From: a virus
Strand: one strand, 5' to 3'
Length of the DNA: 26,738 nt
IMG/VR virus record: IMGVR_UViG_3300031227_000346
Location: 1-26,738 of that record
Shown here: one piece after another, positions 1,966 to 10,623 of the stretch
Position numbering within the stretch: the stretch's first letter is position 1
Layout of the letters: each line of letters opens with the position of its first letter
Made by a program: the position numbers and the translations under genes
The notes under the pieces: generated by a model
What the model was told of the DNA's origin: nothing
The model's input: the letters and a program-made list of their open reading frames with translations, nothing else
The model's database searches: none

Positions 1966-3453
1966 ATGAACTTAACACAGCGACTAAAACGGAGTTTGAT
2001 GCCAACGGCTGGCGAAAAGGCTGCACTAACAGGAACGTCAGGAACGGCGTCGGCTGTCAATAAATACGTTACAGACACGGATTATAGATTAAATCCACCT
2101 GCCGTCCGTCGTATCGTGGTTGCTGATATGCAACCGCACGAAAGCTGGTCGGCTGATGGAACAGCTACAAATCAGGCAGATACTGTTCATTTCAAAACAG
2201 GTACTCAGGGGTTGGAGCTTGAAGTTCTGACTGGTTCTAATGATTTCCATAGTCTTGTTTTGGACAAGCCAGTAAAAGTCTACGGTGCGGTTGGTATATG
2301 GTTCTACGCTCCAGACCCGACAAAAATACTTTCTATTCAGTTGCGTATTTATCCTGCGAATGGCGAAGCGCCTTATTATTCCGAGTATATCACTTTAGCT
2401 GGAAATCACTATTACGGATTAAAAGCTGGCGATTGGTGGTTTGTAAACATCAATCCTCGGAAATTCACTCTTGGTGCAGGAGCGCCTGTTTGGGGAGCAA
2501 GCGGAACATGGATTGAAAAAATCAGAATTAGATGTCAGGCACAAACAGGCAACACTACTTTAACGGTTGGTGGCATTATTGCAGAGGACGGTCTTGACGT
2601 TGGCACAGGTACGCCTGTGGGTGCAATTTGCCTCGGTTTCGATGGGGCTTATGATACGCAGTATTCAGTTGCTTTTACTGACATGCAAGCTCGCGGCTGG
2701 CCGGGGACTGAATGGGTTGCTTTGGGTGGCGTTGACGTGACCAGTCCGGGTTCTGTAATTGGTGCTACACAAATGACGCTCACGCAACTCATCGAAATGT
2801 ATAACGCAGGCTGGGATGTTGCACATCAAGGGTCTTACACAGCCAATATTTTTTCAGTAGCTACGACCGAAGCTGATTTCCGGGCCTCAATGAGTAAGAA
2901 TCGGTTTTTGTTCTCAAGTCTTGGATTCCACAGAGGACTAAACATTGCATCTTGGGGTGGACATCATGGTATCTGTGATGATACCAATGTCCCGGTTATA
3001 TTGAAAGAGCTTGGGTATGTATCTTCTCGCGGTGTCGTTGCGTGGTCAGATGTTTATCCCAATATTGCATGGGGATATGGGCCTGAAGGATGGACAACCA
3101 ATAATGTCTGGAACCCCGGAGATTATTACCAGGTCGGCAGCGACGGGCCAAACAATAAGACGGTGGCTGATGCGGAAAGCATGATAACAGATGTTGTCAA
3201 TCGTCGAACTTTCGCCCATTTATATTCCCACCAAATCATGCCAGACGTTGATTGGGTTGCAGGAAATGTAAAACAATCGGTTTGGGATGCGATGATCGCC
3301 AAGATGGATGAATATGTCGCTTCCGGCCAATTGATCGTAATAAGTTATACACAATATCTGGCGATGACACTATTCCGTAACTCTAGTGTGCAATACGGTA
3401 CTGATGGCAGCTTGCAGATGAAGAGTCTACCTACAAACTTGGAGGTGTTCTAA
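1966..3453 (+). CDS. Virion-associated polysaccharide deacetylase-like protein
   Basis: A 495-residue protein. Residues about 50-205 look like a beta-sandwich, carbohydrate-binding type region. Residues about 218-470 look like a NodB/CE4 deacetylase fold: AICLGFDGAYD (219-229) occupies the place of the catalytic TFDDG motif, and GWDVAHQGSYT (282-292) that of the metal-binding HTxxH motif. HRGLN (322-326) and HLYSH (418-422) fit later motifs. Motif 1 keeps one of the usual two Asp residues and motif 2 has lost the second His spacing, so activity is uncertain. CE4 enzymes remove acetyl groups from polysaccharides; on a virion this would act on host capsule or wall glycan. The first 45 residues may anchor it to the particle. 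The next gene starts within its stop codon (TAATG). Confidence 0.65.
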   Translation: MNLTQRLKRSLMPTAGEKAALTGTSGTASAVNKYVTDTDYRLNPPAVRRIVVADMQPHESWSADGTATNQADTVHFKTGTQGLELEVLTGSNDFHSLVLDKPVKVYGAVGIWFYAPDPTKILSIQLRIYPANGEAPYYSEYITLAGNHYYGLKAGDWWFVNINPRKFTLGAGAPVWGASGTWIEKIRIRCQAQTGNTTLTVGGIIAEDGLDVGTGTPVGAICLGFDGAYDTQYSVAFTDMQARGWPGTEWVALGGVDVTSPGSVIGATQMTLTQLIEMYNAGWDVAHQGSYTANIFSVATTEADFRASMSKNRFLFSSLGFHRGLNIASWGGHHGICDDTNVPVILKELGYVSSRGVVAWSDVYPNIAWGYGPEGWTTNNVWNPGDYYQVGSDGPNNKTVADAESMITDVVNRRTFAHLYSHQIMPDVDWVAGNVKQSVWDAMIAKMDEYVASGQLIVISYTQYLAMTLFRNSSVQYGTDGSLQMKSLPTNLEVF

Positions 3454-4061
3454 TGGGTAATGCAAGTGGCAAAAATGGGTGGCAAGTAATTCCAAAGCCC
3501 TTATTGTTTGAGGAGGATGCTTTGGTATGGGATGATTATGTGACTCCTCTTGGCCCCAATAACTGGAACGGTGTTTCTAATAATCCCACGTTGACAAAGT
3601 TGTTTGATGATGGTTCAGGCAGCCAAGGTGTTTATAGTTATATTTTCTCTGATGGAGACGAGGCTATAATCACAGCACAATTGCCACATTCATGGAAGCA
3701 AGGGACTACTATTTACCCCCATATCCATTTTATGTGTACTTCAGATCTATACCCCGCCGACAATTTTGGAATCGAATTTGAATATACATGGGCAGACATA
3801 GACGAAGATTTCCCTGCCAACACCACTTTAGAAACGAACGACATATCTACAGGCGCGTCAACGGATTATAAGCACCAATACGAAGACGTTACCGCTGCTG
3901 GCATAGATGGGACAGGACACACAATATCTTCAATTCTGTTATGCCGGGTAAAAAGAGTTGCTGCCGCAGGAGATAATTATGCAGGCGGAATAGCGATTCT
4001 TGATTTTGATATTCATTATCAAAAAGATACAGTTGGTTCAAGGACGGTAGATATAAAATAG
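3453..4061 (+). CDS. Beta-rich virion/appendage protein (202 aa)
   Basis: Starts at the ATG overlapping the previous stop, with GGAGGTG upstream. The product contains LPHSWKQGTTIYPHIHF near its middle, a pattern I associate with a phage particle protein in which an EGT-(E/I)-x-H-x-H strand sits in a jelly-roll-like domain. No transmembrane or signal segment. It lies between the deacetylase-like and fibre-like genes, so an appendage, collar or adaptor role is likely. The family is recognised only by general resemblance; the exact role is unknown. Confidence 0.5.
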   Translation: MGNASGKNGWQVIPKPLLFEEDALVWDDYVTPLGPNNWNGVSNNPTLTKLFDDGSGSQGVYSYIFSDGDEAIITAQLPHSWKQGTTIYPHIHFMCTSDLYPADNFGIEFEYTWADIDEDFPANTTLETNDISTGASTDYKHQYEDVTAAGIDGTGHTISSILLCRVKRVAAAGDNYAGGIAILDFDIHYQKDTVGSRTVDIK

Positions 4062-4073
4062 GAAATATGAAAT

Positions 4074-5582
4074 ATGGCCAATGAAATTAAATACAGAGAC
4101 ACAGAAACAGGAGATACCCTGTATGCTGTTATTCGCAATGCTGTTAATCAGTATTGGGATGCTGCCAATACTACATGGGAAACGCTCGTACCCGCAAGTT
4201 GGGGCGATTATGATATCACATTAACAGAAACTCCAGCTGGTGGATATACTTACGTTGGCGACATTCCTGGCGGAGTTAATACGGCGGGAATATACATCGT
4301 CGATATTTATTCTCAGGTCGGTGGATCACCTGCGATTACAGATGATTTTCTGGCAAGCGGAACAATCGACTGGACTGGCTCAGCCGAAGTTTTACCCTCA
4401 GATATCGCGGCAGATACAAACGAACTTCAAACCGACTGGGCAAACGGAGGAAGACTGGATGTTATATTGGACGGAACAGCAACCCCTGCTCAGGTCAAGA
4501 CAAATGTGCAAAGCGGCATGACAGATCAGGGATATACTACTACCCGAGCACCGTACCTTGATGAACTTGCGGCCGCAAACATTCCTACCGACATTGACGC
4601 CCTACTTACCCGCCTAACAGCGACACGTGCGGGTTATCTTGACAATTTAACCAATCTCAATGCTACTGTTGGAAGCAGATCTGTCCATACGGCTGCCCAA
4701 GCCGGTACTGACGCCGCGGGTAAGATACTTACGACACCAGCGAATCTGTTGGCTACCGATGCAAGTGGAAAGGTAACCGTCGGCCAGAACGATGATAAGA
4801 CAGGGTACGAATTAGCCGCTGATCAGGAAGTAGACGTTACAAAAGTGGCTGGTGCTGCTGTTTCAGGTGTGGATGACTTCAAAGCCGATGTATCCGCTCT
4901 TGCTATCGAGAGTAATGTCGAAGGGCATGTGACATCAGGCATGACAACGCAGGGCTATACATCCGCACGTGGCCCATATCTTGACGAACTTGCTGCTGCT
5001 AATCTTCCCGCAGATATTGACAGCCTATTGACACGACTTACGGCTATCCGTGCCGGTTACATAGACGAACTCGGCCCGACAAACGTACCTGCTGATATCG
5101 ATACGCTTATCGGGCGATTAACAGCTGCACGGGCTACACTTATGGACAATCTCTCCGATCTTGACGTGGCTGTTTCTACACGGAACGCCACAGCCCCTGA
5201 TAATACAGGAATTACAGCTAATGGAGTCGCCATCGCAGCCTTGAACAATTTATCACAAGCACAATCGCAAGTTGCAGCGGCGGCGGCTCTTACAGCATAT
5301 GACCCGCCAACTAAGACCGAAATGGATACAGCTACCCAGGCGGCAAAACTGGCGTCAGATGGTCTCGATTCTATATCCATGACCGAACCTACCGGCGTAG
5401 CCTCGAATTTCAGGGAAGTGGTAATCCAACTATGGCGGCGGTTCTTCGGGAAAACTACCCTGACAAAAACCGCGGCTGGGACAGGGACATTGAAAACACT
5501 CAAAGAAGATGGTACAACTACAGCCACAACGCAAGCAGTTGCGGATGATGGAACTACGGAAACCCAAGGCGAGGCGAGCTAA
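4074..5582 (+). CDS. Fibre-like appendage protein with internal repeats (502 aa)
   Basis: ATG at 4074 after ATAGGAAA. Residues 1-105 form an immunoglobulin-like, Tyr/Trp-rich N-terminal domain (GGYTYVGDIPGGV, GIYIVDIYSQ), likely the part bound to the particle. The middle is Ala/Thr/Asp rich and repetitive: a unit built on GYTxxRxPYLDELAAAN and DIDxLLTRLTAxRAGY occurs at residues 147-192 and 287-333, with a partial third copy at 334-362. A C-terminal segment (REVVIQLWRRFFGK, 447-460) precedes a Thr/Gly-rich tail. Such alternating alpha-helical repeats are seen in phage fibres and whiskers. The next gene begins on its stop codon. Confidence 0.6.
   Translation: MANEIKYRDTETGDTLYAVIRNAVNQYWDAANTTWETLVPASWGDYDITLTETPAGGYTYVGDIPGGVNTAGIYIVDIYSQVGGSPAITDDFLASGTIDWTGSAEVLPSDIAADTNELQTDWANGGRLDVILDGTATPAQVKTNVQSGMTDQGYTTTRAPYLDELAAANIPTDIDALLTRLTATRAGYLDNLTNLNATVGSRSVHTAAQAGTDAAGKILTTPANLLATDASGKVTVGQNDDKTGYELAADQEVDVTKVAGAAVSGVDDFKADVSALAIESNVEGHVTSGMTTQGYTSARGPYLDELAAANLPADIDSLLTRLTAIRAGYIDELGPTNVPADIDTLIGRLTAARATLMDNLSDLDVAVSTRNATAPDNTGITANGVAIAALNNLSQAQSQVAAAAALTAYDPPTKTEMDTATQAAKLASDGLDSISMTEPTGVASNFREVVIQLWRRFFGKTTLTKTAAGTGTLKTLKEDGTTTATTQAVADDGTTETQGEAS
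4512..5159 (+). repeat. Diverged coding repeat inside the fibre-like gene
   Basis: Two protein repeats (DNA 4512-4649 and 4932-5072) and a shorter third copy (to about 5159) share PYLDELAAAN, DID, LLTRLTA and RAGY. Codons differ freely at silent positions, so the duplication is old and kept by protein-level selection. Confidence 0.75.
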
Positions 5583-5761
5583 TGCGACTTTTTAAGATAC
5601 CTGACGGATTATTAACGAACGCAGACAGAACGTTTTTACTGATGCCGCCGTTTGATATGAAGATCGAAGGCCTTGTCTGTGCGCGTGGCATTATAAGCAT
5701 AATTGCCAGAATTAGCGGATTGTTTAGTATGAAGCCTAGAATAGCTGGGAGGGTAACATGA
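5582..5761 (+). CDS. Small protein of unknown function (59 aa)
   Basis: ATG at 5582 shares its A with the stop of the upstream gene (TAATG), and its own TGA overlaps the next ATG (ATGA at 5758-5761). This double coupling is the main evidence that it is real. The product begins MRLFKIPDGLLTNADRTFLL and has a hydrophobic stretch near residues 35-48 (CARGIISIIARISGLF) that could be an amphipathic or membrane helix. No family recognised. It lies between two virion-type genes, so it may be a minor particle protein. Confidence 0.6.
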   Translation: MRLFKIPDGLLTNADRTFLLMPPFDMKIEGLVCARGIISIIARISGLFSMKPRIAGRVT

Positions 5762-6335: not shown

Positions 6336-6827
6336 ATGACAACGCAAAAAGACAATTCGATGGGTAGTAGCGAAAATACAACGAAGCGGAAAATGCACCC
6401 CAATAGTCTGAAAAACATCGAAAACCATAAGTTCAAGCCAGGCCAATCCGGAAATCCAAATGGTACGGCGAGAGGTACAGTCAACATCACCAATTTGTTT
6501 CACAAGCTATTGGCGAAGGAAACAGATAGCAAGACGAAAAAGACACTTGCCGAGGCACTTGCAACCAAAATGATCGCCCAGGCACTTAAAGGTGGTTTCT
6601 CGCAGCAGAATCTAATCGTTAATCGTACCGACGGCAATGTTCCATGGCGTATTGCCGGTGCTGGTGGTGATGATCTATTCTCCGGTACGCAAGAATCTAT
6701 CGAAAAGATATTTACAAACCCGAAAGCAATGGAATTGGCAATCAAACTATCCAACTGCCTTAACGAGACAAAAAACAAACCTGACGGTAAGAATAATGGT
6801 CATGGAAACACTGCAACCAACGAATGA
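6336..6827 (+). CDS. Small terminase-like protein, DUF5681 type (163 aa)
   Basis: Starts just after the previous stop. The signature FKPGQSGNPNGTARG (residues about 33-47) is that of DUF5681 proteins, which very often sit directly upstream of large terminases and are thought to be the DNA-recognition (small) subunit. A basic N-terminus (TKRKMHPNS) and a helical middle (LAEALATKMIAQALKGG) follow. The 3' end overlaps the large terminase start by about 30 bases. The role is inferred from family and position. Confidence 0.7.
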   Translation: MTTQKDNSMGSSENTTKRKMHPNSLKNIENHKFKPGQSGNPNGTARGTVNITNLFHKLLAKETDSKTKKTLAEALATKMIAQALKGGFSQQNLIVNRTDGNVPWRIAGAGGDDLFSGTQESIEKIFTNPKAMELAIKLSNCLNETKNKPDGKNNGHGNTATNE

Positions 6828-9237
6828 TGCTACAGCGTTGATCTGCGGTCAGCCGTGGCGGTGGACTCCACATACTTACGCCCAACACGTAACAAGTGAT
6901 AAGTGGATACCATTCAAGGCGCAGGTGTTTGCGGGGAACGCGATAGCACGTGCGATAGCAAGTGGGCGGGGGAGAGTGATAATCAACTGGCCGCCGAGAA
7001 ATGGGAAAAGTTTCCTTGTCAGTAAATGGACACCGCTTTGGTTTTTGGATAACATGCCTAATCGCAATGTAATACTTACCGCGTATGAAGCGGGGCTTGC
7101 TGCAGAGTGGGGTCGCAAATGTCGAAATGAGATTGAGCGGAACCAGCGAATACGCATAACACTTAGTAGGGACAGTTCTGCAGCACATCGATGGAATACG
7201 CCCCAAGGCGGTGGTATGATAACTGCAGGTGTCGGCGGGCCGGTAACAGGGCATGGCGGGGATCTGATAATCGTAGACGACCCGTTGAAAAACTGGCAGG
7301 ATGCGTATAGTTTCATAGTTCGTAACCGGACAATCGAGTGGTTCAATTCAACGCTGTATAGCCGCTGCGAACCCAACGCTACTATCATCATAGTCATGCA
7401 ACGCTGGCACGAAGAAGATCTAACCGGCTATCTAATCAACGAGCATCCTGACGATTGGCAGGTGATACGTTTCCCCGCACTTGCTGAAGAAAACGATGCA
7501 CTTGGCCGGGTGGAAGGCGATCCGCTTTGTCCACGGCGGTATACACGGGAAGCCATGCTTGCTATACGAAGCGCATGCCCGCAAGAGGTATGGGAGAGCA
7601 TGTACCAGCAATGTCCGGGTTCAGTAGGTATTGGCCGGGTTTATGGTAATTTTACCGATGCAAACATAGATATAAATGCTACATTGCGAGATGATTTACC
7701 ATTGCAGATAGCATTGGATTTCAACGTTAGGCCCGGTATGCACTTGGAAATCGGGCAGTATGATAATAAAAAAGATGAATTTGTTATTGCAGACGAGATA
7801 CACGAGCCGCGTATGCACGCGCGTGCTGCTGCCGAAGCGTTTGTCGAATGGGTAAAAGCACAGGGTGGTTATCGCTGGCCTGACGAATTGCATATATTCG
7901 GTGACGCATCAGGGCAAAGTGAATGGACTGGTACTGGTGAGACAGACTATCAGATCGTCAAACAAGTATTGAAACGCGAGGGCATTAAGTATAGAATCCG
8001 TGTACCGAAGGCTAACCCTGGCATCAAGGATAGTATGAATGCTTTCAACGACGCTTTGTGCGATATTGACGGACATAGGCATTATCGTGTGCATCCAAGA
8101 TGCAAGAGGTTGCTCGCAGATTTTAAGAACCTTAAGACGGACGAGAATGGCTTAATAGATAAGCATGTCAATGCCTTGAGCCATGCCTGTCTTATTGCAG
8201 AGACAATGATCGCTACTGATAAGGGCGATATTCCTATTGAAAAGATTAAATCTGGCATGAAGGTATTGACGCGCAAGGGATATAAAAAAGTTTTATGGAG
8301 CGGAATAGCTTTTGAAAATGCCGATATTATTACAGTAAATTTATCTAATGGGAAAAAAATTAGTGGTACAAAAAATCATCCAATTTGGGTAAAAGATATT
8401 GGATTTGTACCCTTGGAATTGTTAAAATCCGGTAACGTTCTGTATCCAATAGAAAGGATTTTAACATGCAAAAAGAAACAATCGTCTACAAAAACCACAG
8501 ATATTCACGGTATCCGCAAGCAAAGCAATTTTCAGACAGGTCTTATTTCAAAGCAGGATCATATGGTTACTTACACAGACATATATGGTTCGACCATTTT
8601 GGGCCAATTCCCGATGGGTATTATATCCACCACAAAGACAAGAACCCTGCTAACAATACTATTGAAAATCTGGAATGTCTTACTGCTGCAGGACACGCCG
8701 CCAAACATCCGCTCTCTCCTGCTCGCCTTGTGCAATTGCGGAAACAATTACATTCCACTCGACACCTTGCGGCAATATGGCACAGATCGCCCGAAGGAAG
8801 AAAATGGCATCGGGAACACGCTAAAAAGACTTCTTTCGGCAAAGGTATATCAATCGACAAAAAGTGTATCTATTGCGGAAAAACATTCCCCAGCATACAA
8901 GGCCGCAAAGCCAATGTGTATTGTTCACTCAACTGTCGATGTGCTGCCCGACGCAAATCAGGAATTGATAACGAGACAAGAACATGTGAATACTGTGGTA
9001 AGAAATTCGTTATCAATCGTTACCGAAAACCAACATGCTGTTCCCGTTCATGTGGAAAGCGTCTCTCGTGGAAACGAAAGAAAACAGCCAGTATATGATA
9101 TTACTGTAGAGGGATCGCATGAGTTTTTTGCAAATGGAATTCTGGCGCATAATTCAGACGCTTGTCGGTATCACGTTTTTTATCTTCGTCCGATGAAATT
9201 GATAACAAGTGAACCAGCAGGTGAATTTAACATATAG
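6796..9237 (+). CDS. terL: Large terminase with in-frame intein
   Basis: The ATG at 6796 (MVMETLQP) is chosen because upstream in-frame codons lie deep inside the small-terminase gene; 6802 is an alternative start. The precursor has 813 residues and is 491 after removal of the intein. ATPase: Walker A PPRNGKS (66-72) and Walker B LIIVDD (157-162). The RNase H-like nuclease has acidic residues in IALDFNV (D308) and FGDASG (D370) and the final Asp in SDACRYH just after the intein. The intein interrupts LSHA/SDAC, a conserved nuclease-domain position, so splicing is needed for an active enzyme. The enzyme cuts concatemeric DNA and pumps it into the prohead through the portal encoded next. Its frame remains open through the whole overlapping HNH gene. 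Confidence 0.93.
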   Translation: MVMETLQPTNDATALICGQPWRWTPHTYAQHVTSDKWIPFKAQVFAGNAIARAIASGRGRVIINWPPRNGKSFLVSKWTPLWFLDNMPNRNVILTAYEAGLAAEWGRKCRNEIERNQRIRITLSRDSSAAHRWNTPQGGGMITAGVGGPVTGHGGDLIIVDDPLKNWQDAYSFIVRNRTIEWFNSTLYSRCEPNATIIIVMQRWHEEDLTGYLINEHPDDWQVIRFPALAEENDALGRVEGDPLCPRRYTREAMLAIRSACPQEVWESMYQQCPGSVGIGRVYGNFTDANIDINATLRDDLPLQIALDFNVRPGMHLEIGQYDNKKDEFVIADEIHEPRMHARAAAEAFVEWVKAQGGYRWPDELHIFGDASGQSEWTGTGETDYQIVKQVLKREGIKYRIRVPKANPGIKDSMNAFNDALCDIDGHRHYRVHPRCKRLLADFKNLKTDENGLIDKHVNALSHACLIAETMIATDKGDIPIEKIKSGMKVLTRKGYKKVLWSGIAFENADIITVNLSNGKKISGTKNHPIWVKDIGFVPLELLKSGNVLYPIERILTCKKKQSSTKTTDIHGIRKQSNFQTGLISKQDHMVTYTDIYGSTILGQFPMGIISTTKTRTLLTILLKIWNVLLLQDTPPNIRSLLLALCNCGNNYIPLDTLRQYGTDRPKEENGIGNTLKRLLSAKVYQSTKSVSIAEKHSPAYKAAKPMCIVHSTVDVLPDANQELITRQEHVNTVVRNSLSIVTENQHAVPVHVESVSRGNERKQPVYDITVEGSHEFFANGILAHNSDACRYHVFYLRPMKLITSEPAGEFNI
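8453..8458 (+). promoter_or_regulatory. Ribosome binding site for the nested HNH gene
   Basis: AAAGGA, seven bases before the ATG at 8466, lies inside the intein coding sequence. It marks independent translation of the out-of-frame HNH gene. Confidence 0.65.
8466..9098 (+). CDS. HNH homing endonuclease nested out of frame in the intein
   Basis: A 210-residue protein read in the -1 frame relative to terminase/intein. The HNH core is at residues about 34-72: YLHRHIWFDHFGPIPDG, then the His pair and Asp of IHHKDKN, then N-T-I-E-N-L. Two zinc-knuckle regions follow (CIYCG with YCSLNC at 134-157; CEYCG with CCSRSCG at 174-197). This layout is typical of phage HNH homing enzymes that cut intein- or intron-free alleles and drive spread of their host element. 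It has its own ATG and AAAGGA site. It stops (TGA 9096-9098) two codons into the DNA for intein block F. A C-AAA-AAG stretch at 8469-8475 could also allow -1 slippage into this frame. Confidence 0.88.
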   Translation: MQKETIVYKNHRYSRYPQAKQFSDRSYFKAGSYGYLHRHIWFDHFGPIPDGYYIHHKDKNPANNTIENLECLTAAGHAAKHPLSPARLVQLRKQLHSTRHLAAIWHRSPEGRKWHREHAKKTSFGKGISIDKKCIYCGKTFPSIQGRKANVYCSLNCRCAARRKSGIDNETRTCEYCGKKFVINRYRKPTCCSRSCGKRLSWKRKKTASI

Positions 9238-9246
9238 GAGTTTGTA

Positions 9247-10623
9247 ATGCCGATATTTAGGAAAAAGCCAAAGGTGGGCGAAGAGACTCGCATCCAAAGC
9301 ACAGATGACGGGATAGCCGGGGTAGCTACTGCTCTTACTGGAATGGATGGCTACGGCCCTGCATCACCGGGAACTTACAGCACGTACAGGAAGATGCGAG
9401 AACAGCCCACTATCGCACTTGCCAGAACTATCGCTACCGTACCGATCCGCGTCGCTACATGGTCGATAGAGGCTAATGACGGCGTTCCTGAAGAACGTGT
9501 AGAATTCATTAGGCAACAAGTTGAAAGTTTCTGGCCTGGTATCATTTATAACATCCCGTTTTCACTTGACTACGGGTTCCAATCGTTTGAAAAGGTTTGG
9601 GTTGTTGACAACGGTCGATATGTATACTCAAAGATTAAGCCGCTACTCCCCGATTATACTAAGGTTATGATCGACAAGGCAACTGGTACGTTTGCTGGCC
9701 TGAAACAACACGATGTGGAGATAGGTGCGGAGAAGGCCTTTTGGTTTACTTATGATGGTGAGGCAGGAAATTTCTATGGCCGGTCACGACATGAGAATAT
9801 ACGGGCAAACGCATGGCAGCCTTGGCTGGATACAGCGAAACAAATGGCCCAGTACGGGGCAAAGACCGCCGGTGTTATTCCGATAATCGAATATCCTACT
9901 GGTGAGAGTAAAGATGCTACTGGCGCTGTCAGGAGCAATTTCGAGCTTGCCAAGAAGGTTATCGAAAACCTTAGCCAAGCCAAAGGCATCGCTATGCCTA
10001 ACCAGTTCAAGAGATTCGCCGAGGATTTAATGGCTAAGGGCATAAGCCTGAAAGATATGGAGGCGTGGGTAATCTCATTCCTTGAACCCAAGGGTCAGCA
10101 TGGCGGTGATTTCGTAAACATGCTGAAGTATTATGATTCGCAATTAATGAGGGGCTGGCTTGTCCCCGAGCGGGCTGCGATTGAGGGTACGTTCGGCACG
10201 AAGGCTGAGGCGGAGACACACGGGGACTTAGCAATGGCAGTCGCGATGCTGCTGTATGAAGATATCCTCCGAAACGTCAACTGGTATTTGATTAACCCTT
10301 TACTCAAGTATAATTTTGGGTACGATGCGGAAAATACCATATATCTGTCCCGTGCGGGCATGGCTCCAGAACAGCAGGCGTTCTTCCGTGATCTGCTTGG
10401 CAAGACGCTATCTAATCCTGCGAACATAGATCTGTTGGTCAAGTGGCTTGATATCGATACTATGCTTGATTCAGCCGGGTTACCTAAGGCTTCCGAGACA
10501 GTCGATATTGACGAGATAGGCCCACGGCCTGATGATAAAAAAGAAGAAGTTCCCGCGTCAATGACCAAGATCGTGCGCAACATATATAGGAAAACAAATG
10601 CCAGCATCGCAAAAAGCACGTAA
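9247..10623 (+). CDS. Portal protein, DUF935 (Mu gp29-like)
   Basis: ATG at 9247, with AGGAG nine bases upstream. The 458-residue product has the DUF935 layout: N-terminal REQPTIALARTIATVPI, then SLDYGFQSFEKVW, a middle segment ending FYGRSR, AMPNQFKRF and GGDFVNMLKYYDSQ, and a late SRAGMAPEQQAFFRD. DUF935 proteins are the dodecameric portals of Mu-like phages: they nucleate head assembly, form the DNA channel and bind the terminase encoded just upstream. The C-terminus (DDKKEEVP) is charged and flexible. The 3' end overlaps the next gene by 26 bases. Confidence 0.88.
   Translation: MPIFRKKPKVGEETRIQSTDDGIAGVATALTGMDGYGPASPGTYSTYRKMREQPTIALARTIATVPIRVATWSIEANDGVPEERVEFIRQQVESFWPGIIYNIPFSLDYGFQSFEKVWVVDNGRYVYSKIKPLLPDYTKVMIDKATGTFAGLKQHDVEIGAEKAFWFTYDGEAGNFYGRSRHENIRANAWQPWLDTAKQMAQYGAKTAGVIPIIEYPTGESKDATGAVRSNFELAKKVIENLSQAKGIAMPNQFKRFAEDLMAKGISLKDMEAWVISFLEPKGQHGGDFVNMLKYYDSQLMRGWLVPERAAIEGTFGTKAEAETHGDLAMAVAMLLYEDILRNVNWYLINPLLKYNFGYDAENTIYLSRAGMAPEQQAFFRDLLGKTLSNPANIDLLVKWLDIDTMLDSAGLPKASETVDIDEIGPRPDDKKEEVPASMTKIVRNIYRKTNASIAKST

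Follow-up and report, generated by a model that had tools for sequence, protein, structure and literature searches.

An HNH endonuclease gene overprinted on the linker of a continuous intein in a viral terminase gene

Inteins are usually described with their endonuclease as an in-frame domain. In the case presented here the endonuclease is a separate gene, read in another frame of the same DNA. Several known systems come close to this arrangement. Split inteins in fractured genes reportedly have a free-standing endonuclease between their halves (Dassa et al., 2009). Collaborative homing, known from the cyanophage psbA intron, has a free-standing endonuclease teaming with a splicing element. 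The ShiLan domain, an insertion in a mycobacteriophage methylase, contains a hidden out-of-frame HNH ORF (PMC11855218). An overprinted nuclease in a canonical intein is not described in the literature we searched; preprints and most subscription journals were outside the search, so a description may exist.

The window, by which we mean the whole stretch of DNA analysed, is a 26.7-kb viral contig (26,738 nt; IMGVR_UViG_3300031227_000346). Its terL gene spans about 6796-9237, intein included, starts at ATG 6796 or ATG 6802, and overlaps the preceding ORF (6336-6827). That ORF occupies the usual position of terS and is probably terS. A portal gene follows terL. Upstream of the packaging genes, at 1966-5758, three long ORFs (495, 202 and 502 aa) are without a PHROG match. 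The features of terL and of its insertion are as follows.

6796..8187, plus strand: terL N-extein, comprising the ATPase domain and the greater part of the nuclease domain (Terminase_6N and Terminase_6C; phrog_4758, 2e-49)
8188..9153, plus strand: intein of 322 aa with class-1 motifs, inserted between ALSHA and SDACRY of the TerL motif
8188..8466, plus strand: N-terminal splicing domain, intein residues 1-93 (AlphaFold pLDDT ~97 over residues 1-90)
8453..8458, plus strand: AAAGGA ribosome-binding site, 7 nt upstream of the HNH ATG
8466..9098, plus strand: HNH endonuclease gene, 210 aa, in the -1 frame relative to the intein, with an HNH_3 core and two C-terminal CxxC...CxxxC zinc modules
8467..9087, plus strand: linker in the intein frame, residues 94-300, on which the HNH gene is overprinted (pLDDT mostly <50)
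9088..9153, plus strand: C-terminal splicing blocks F and G, residues 301-322, assigned by sequence
9154..9237, plus strand: terL C-extein, SDACRY... through to the stop

By its motifs, its Hint fold and its precise insertion, the element is a complete class-1 intein; that it splices is inferred. The insertion site is a conserved motif of the TerL nuclease domain, and all the class-1 residues are present: C1, T61 and H64 (the TxxH of block B), H311 (block F), H321, N322 and Ser+1. In the TerL frame, the intein matches Intein_splicing (8e-12) and Hint_2 (3e-7) in Pfam. The AlphaFold model has a confident Hint fold made of residues 1-90 plus 287-322 (~290-322). The closest solved match to the model in Foldseek is the gp41-1 intein (E 2e-6), and DnaB and RecA inteins are matched as well. 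Residues ~100-285 are modelled as low-confidence coil and helix, and the linker is predicted to be disordered, open but without a fixed sequence. The intein frame has no stop over its 322 codons (8188-9153), and hence no split-intein interruption between the N and C parts. No in-frame endonuclease domain is present in the window intein; the HNH sits in the -1 frame.

The register of the HNH ORF relative to the intein is +2 (= -1), and the ORF (8466-9098) matches HNH_3 (3e-17, Pfam) and phrog_15471 (5e-32, PHROG). Its product is modelled with a mean pLDDT of 95.6 (AlphaFold), whereas the linker encoded by the same DNA is disordered. The catalytic core is kept, with H37, H55, H56, N64 and H77 conserved. 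The stop codon TGA (9096-9098) is made from the intein codons Tyr303-Asp304, TAT GAT. The best solved sequence match is 1u3e (7e-5), which is also the top fold match, though all Foldseek matches of the HNH model are weak. We regard the gene as one of free-standing type and, by its core, a probable homing endonuclease; that it cuts the empty site specifically is inferred.

The initial annotation, made from sequence alone, had placed all the splicing motifs in residues 1-93 and 301-322, a complete 210-residue HNH enzyme with its own ATG and AAAGGA in the -1 frame, and an intein frame open over about 207 codons. These three claims held. The lack of the usual in-frame endonuclease, which it had also pointed out, held too, but is a rule for this intein family and not peculiar to the window. 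Its estimate that such openness would arise by chance about once in 20,000 is arithmetically right for random sequence but rests on the wrong null. We replaced it by synonymous shuffles, in which the HNH protein is fixed and its synonymous codons are reshuffled with codon usage either kept or uniform. For the window alone, the probability of an open intein frame given the HNH protein is then ~0.010 (codon usage kept) or 0.003 (uniform). What decides the matter is the comparison among relatives, the intein frame being open in 60/60 cases.

For this comparison, viral loci were gathered in two scans, one seeded with inteins (69 loci) and the other only with splicing domains (56 loci), and were classified together with phage records. 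This gave 60 distinct inteins with the HNH family, locus L089, which was listed twice, being counted once. The HNH is in the -1 frame in all 60 and in frame with the intein in none. Intein-frame stops are also absent from all 60, against a mean of 15 in the unused third frame and an expectation under the synonymous shuffle of 2.1 per intein frame (mean; codon usage kept) or 4.5 (uniform). Eight free-standing HNH relatives have 1-12 stops in the frame equivalent to the intein frame. Openness of the intein frame is non-random by these computations. Because the 60 nested cases are phylogenetically non-independent, pooled probabilities overstate the evidence, and our argument rests on the qualitative contrast, 0 stops vs. 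15 and vs. the free-standing controls. The +1 register of the eight free-standing relatives has 2-37 stops (at least 13 in five of the eight). A possible reason for the constancy of the -1 frame is that this register can be made stop-free with few codon changes; common descent is likewise possible.

The nested inteins occupy different genes and sites, as their extein flanks indicate, and two such HNH-carrying inteins are found in one gene of locus L044. Cultured members of the family include Tetrasphaera phage TJE1 and Acinetobacter phage Highwayman, whose records annotate terL only. No nested HNH of this family turned up in the genome_contigs scan, which returned mainly Hint or bacterial-intein-like domains, and scans with single proteins of L041, L091 and L101 gave few new loci. 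The single +1 match in the HNH-family classification, L101, was rejected as a member; it is a DUF559 nuclease with similar zinc modules. In L034 and L036 the nested ORFs are shortened, the zinc modules being kept and the HNH core gone; these could be decaying endonucleases in still-open inteins. Locus L026 has two inteins four residues apart in one gene (3001-3993 and 4006-4386), the second of which is a mini-intein.

A Shine-Dalgarno (SD) sequence precedes the first start codon in 19/48 nested ORFs, vs. a background of 14% (p = 1e-5). The start codons lie mostly near +200 to +290. About 60% of the relatives are without an SD site and a few (e.g., L050) are without an obvious start.

The two frames appear to be constrained differently. 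Across eight independent pairs, we counted 301/235/559 differences at HNH codon positions 1/2/3 (p = 1e-33), a pattern resembling that of the free-standing HNH relatives. Since substitutions are concentrated at HNH third positions, the HNH frame is under purifying selection, which is shown by computation. Identity of the HNH exceeds that of the intein-frame linker in every one of the eight pairs, which argues that the linker is constrained mainly to be open. Its openness is conserved while its amino-acid sequence evolves faster than the HNH, and the constraint is likely to be little more than the absence of stops. Vibrio phage 1.238.A (L076, 2100-3450) serves as a natural control. Its terL and intein are broken into two genes, the HNH lying between them, and stops abound in what used to be the linker. 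From its sequence this is likely to be a natural split intein, and it indicates that openness tracks the need for read-through.

The empty site is seen in an intein-free relative, locus L178. Its TerL matches at 86% identity along the full length and runs without a gap across the precise insertion point, and neither HNH nor intein is present in the 7 kb of its sequence examined. Its DNA is 77% identical, so recent homing is not directly shown. Free-standing HNH relatives adjoin terL or terS in Acinetobacter phage BP10, Pseudomonas phage PAE1, an Exiguobacterium phage, Lactobacillus phage CL2 and Salmonella phage PhiSTP1, and those beside terL are a likely origin of the nested gene. In the HNH tree, which is star-like and poorly supported at its deep branches, the free-standing members take more than one position; the tree cannot separate a single origin from repeated nesting or repeated escape. 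The remaining proposals of the initial annotation can now be judged. Selection keeping both frames open over an overprinted linker is supported, the linker being conserved in openness only. An HNH gene that stays free-standing in kind is also supported, given its relatives beside terL in other phages. The annotation knew of no described case, and the nearest precedent found is ShiLan. The locus does not stand alone, however, but belongs to a widespread architecture. In-frame HNH homologues, which would have refuted the proposal, were not found among the relatives (0/60).

Inteins without this HNH family often carry other nucleases out of frame. Overprinting thus recurs across many unrelated phages and several nuclease families, as a design and not an accident. 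Phage genes for helicases and head proteins show the nested layout with nucleases of the LAGLIDADG and DUF559 families. DUF559/Vsr-like nucleases lie at +1 in L085, L101 and Corynebacterium glutamicum phage phi673. In the helicase intein of phi673 (L214, 2501-3406), 8-14 intein-frame stops are expected and 0 seen; for the +1 cases together, 8-17 are expected and none seen. DUF559 ORFs are antisense in L038, L091 and the Vibrio phages 1.265.O (L215, 2492-3511) and 1.266.O (L218, 2501-3520), those of the two Vibrio phages being in exact codon register with the intein. Two inteins in one gene of L060 (2458-3102 and 3700-4440) are each nearly covered by an antisense HNH_3 ORF (Pfam 8e-13 and 2e-8). 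The antisense cases have one common register, and are free of TTA, CTA and TCA, the three stop-giving codons. The helicase intein of Xanthomonas phage FoX3 (L212, 1501-2442) has a LAGLIDADG_2 nuclease (1e-21) at -1. An antisense ORF in Gordonia phage Nordenberg (L213, 2483-3307) shows by eye an intron-type LAGLIDADG-like motif, AAFIDGEGTV, and has no Pfam match. In-frame nucleases also occur in inteins, as judged by eye in L118 and ET08.

We consider it likely that the element is a mobile terL intein with a separately translated homing endonuclease overprinted on its linker. TerL-intein-TerL would be translated as one chain, from which the Hint domain (residues 1-93 plus ~290-322) would cut itself out together with the disordered linker. 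A second initiation, at ATG 8466, would produce the 210-aa HNH enzyme. The enzyme would cut intein-free terL, and repair would copy the whole unit in. Homing would keep the HNH frame functional, and the need to read through terL would keep the intein frame clear of stops. The openness of both frames and its non-randomness, the purifying selection on the HNH, the empty site and the recurrence of the architecture are shown by computation, whereas splicing, translation of the HNH, cleavage and its target are inferred.

Of the alternatives, the one that survives best, although we think it unlikely, is that the nested HNH is a packaging partner of the terminase and not a homing enzyme, its location inside terL keeping the two together. 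An HNH protein encoded next to terL may act in packaging and not in homing, as gp74 of HK97 does. The free-standing relatives beside terL or terS in five phages favor this view. Against it, the close relative L178 does without intein and HNH in the sequence examined, and the LAGLIDADG and DUF559 nucleases nested in phage helicase and head-protein genes have the same layout.

A second alternative is programmed -1 frameshifting, which would yield an intein-N-HNH fusion without a second start; it appears very unlikely. In its favor, the HNH is at -1 throughout the family, and in 16/53 relatives a slippery heptamer stands in frame near the start of the overlap. In the window, however, the sole slippery heptamer in the stretch scanned (~8338-8525), at 8370, precedes a stop in the HNH frame and so cannot feed the HNH ORF. 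The SD and ATG of the HNH ORF are also good, SDs are enriched across the family, and other nucleases lie at +1 or antisense.

The last two alternatives are all but excluded. Under the first, the natural alternative raised in the initial annotation, two sequencing frameshifts would disguise a usual in-frame HNH intein. It is contradicted by 60 distinct inteins from independent contigs and isolates, with the same frame in all and none in frame, and could stand only if one error were common to all 60. An RNA-level intron with an HNH ORF comes to mind since phage HNH ORFs are often in group I introns, but the read-through protein has the complete Hint motifs and Ser+1, and no Rfam match to an intron family, group I core included, was found over 7900-9400, up to E = 5.

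Returning to the overprinted homing endonuclease, a bolder reading takes overprinting as a general means by which inteins carry homing endonucleases, one that has evolved repeatedly. Three folds or more (HNH, DUF559/Vsr-like and LAGLIDADG_2) would have been nested independently at -1, +1 and antisense in continuous inteins, with the splicing frame purged of stops, and split inteins with a free-standing nuclease would arise upon release of the constraint. We lean toward this reading without holding it firmly. Overprinting decouples the evolution of nuclease and splicing, and yields long overlapping-gene pairs with clear functions. It also offers a route to split inteins with a free-standing nuclease, openness of the linker being no longer needed after the intein splits. 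Surveys and gene callers that read the host frame only would score such inteins as endonuclease-free. Examples in the cultured phages phi673 (Corynebacterium glutamicum) and TJE1 (Tetrasphaera), whose hosts are harmless, make the idea testable.

In closing, we compare the locus with the systems it most resembles. With classical large inteins, which have an in-frame LAGLIDADG or HNH endonuclease, it shares the Hint domain, insertion at a conserved active-site motif, and an endonuclease between blocks B and F; here, however, the endonuclease has an overprinted gene of its own, and the linker in the intein frame is disordered filler. The HNH core is common to I-HmuI (PDB 1u3e), of the phage intron-encoded or free-standing HNH type, but the window HNH is nested in an intein coding frame and has extra C-terminal zinc modules. 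Unlike in collaborative homing, the endonuclease gene lies inside the coding sequence of the splicing element. ShiLan is similar in its hidden out-of-frame HNH, its patchy distribution, and an insertion that leaves the host gene free of added stops; it differs in having no splicing motifs, in being thought to be retained, and in its GTG start without a ribosome site (PMC11855218). The window has instead a canonical intein, complete with a Hint domain, in an essential gene, and its HNH has an SD. Fractured-gene split inteins likewise have an independently translated endonuclease gene between the N and C parts, and the locus of Vibrio phage 1.238.A resembles them. The window intein and its 60 relatives are, in contrast, continuous and by inference cis-splicing, and in such an intein two frames of the endonuclease DNA have to be kept open.
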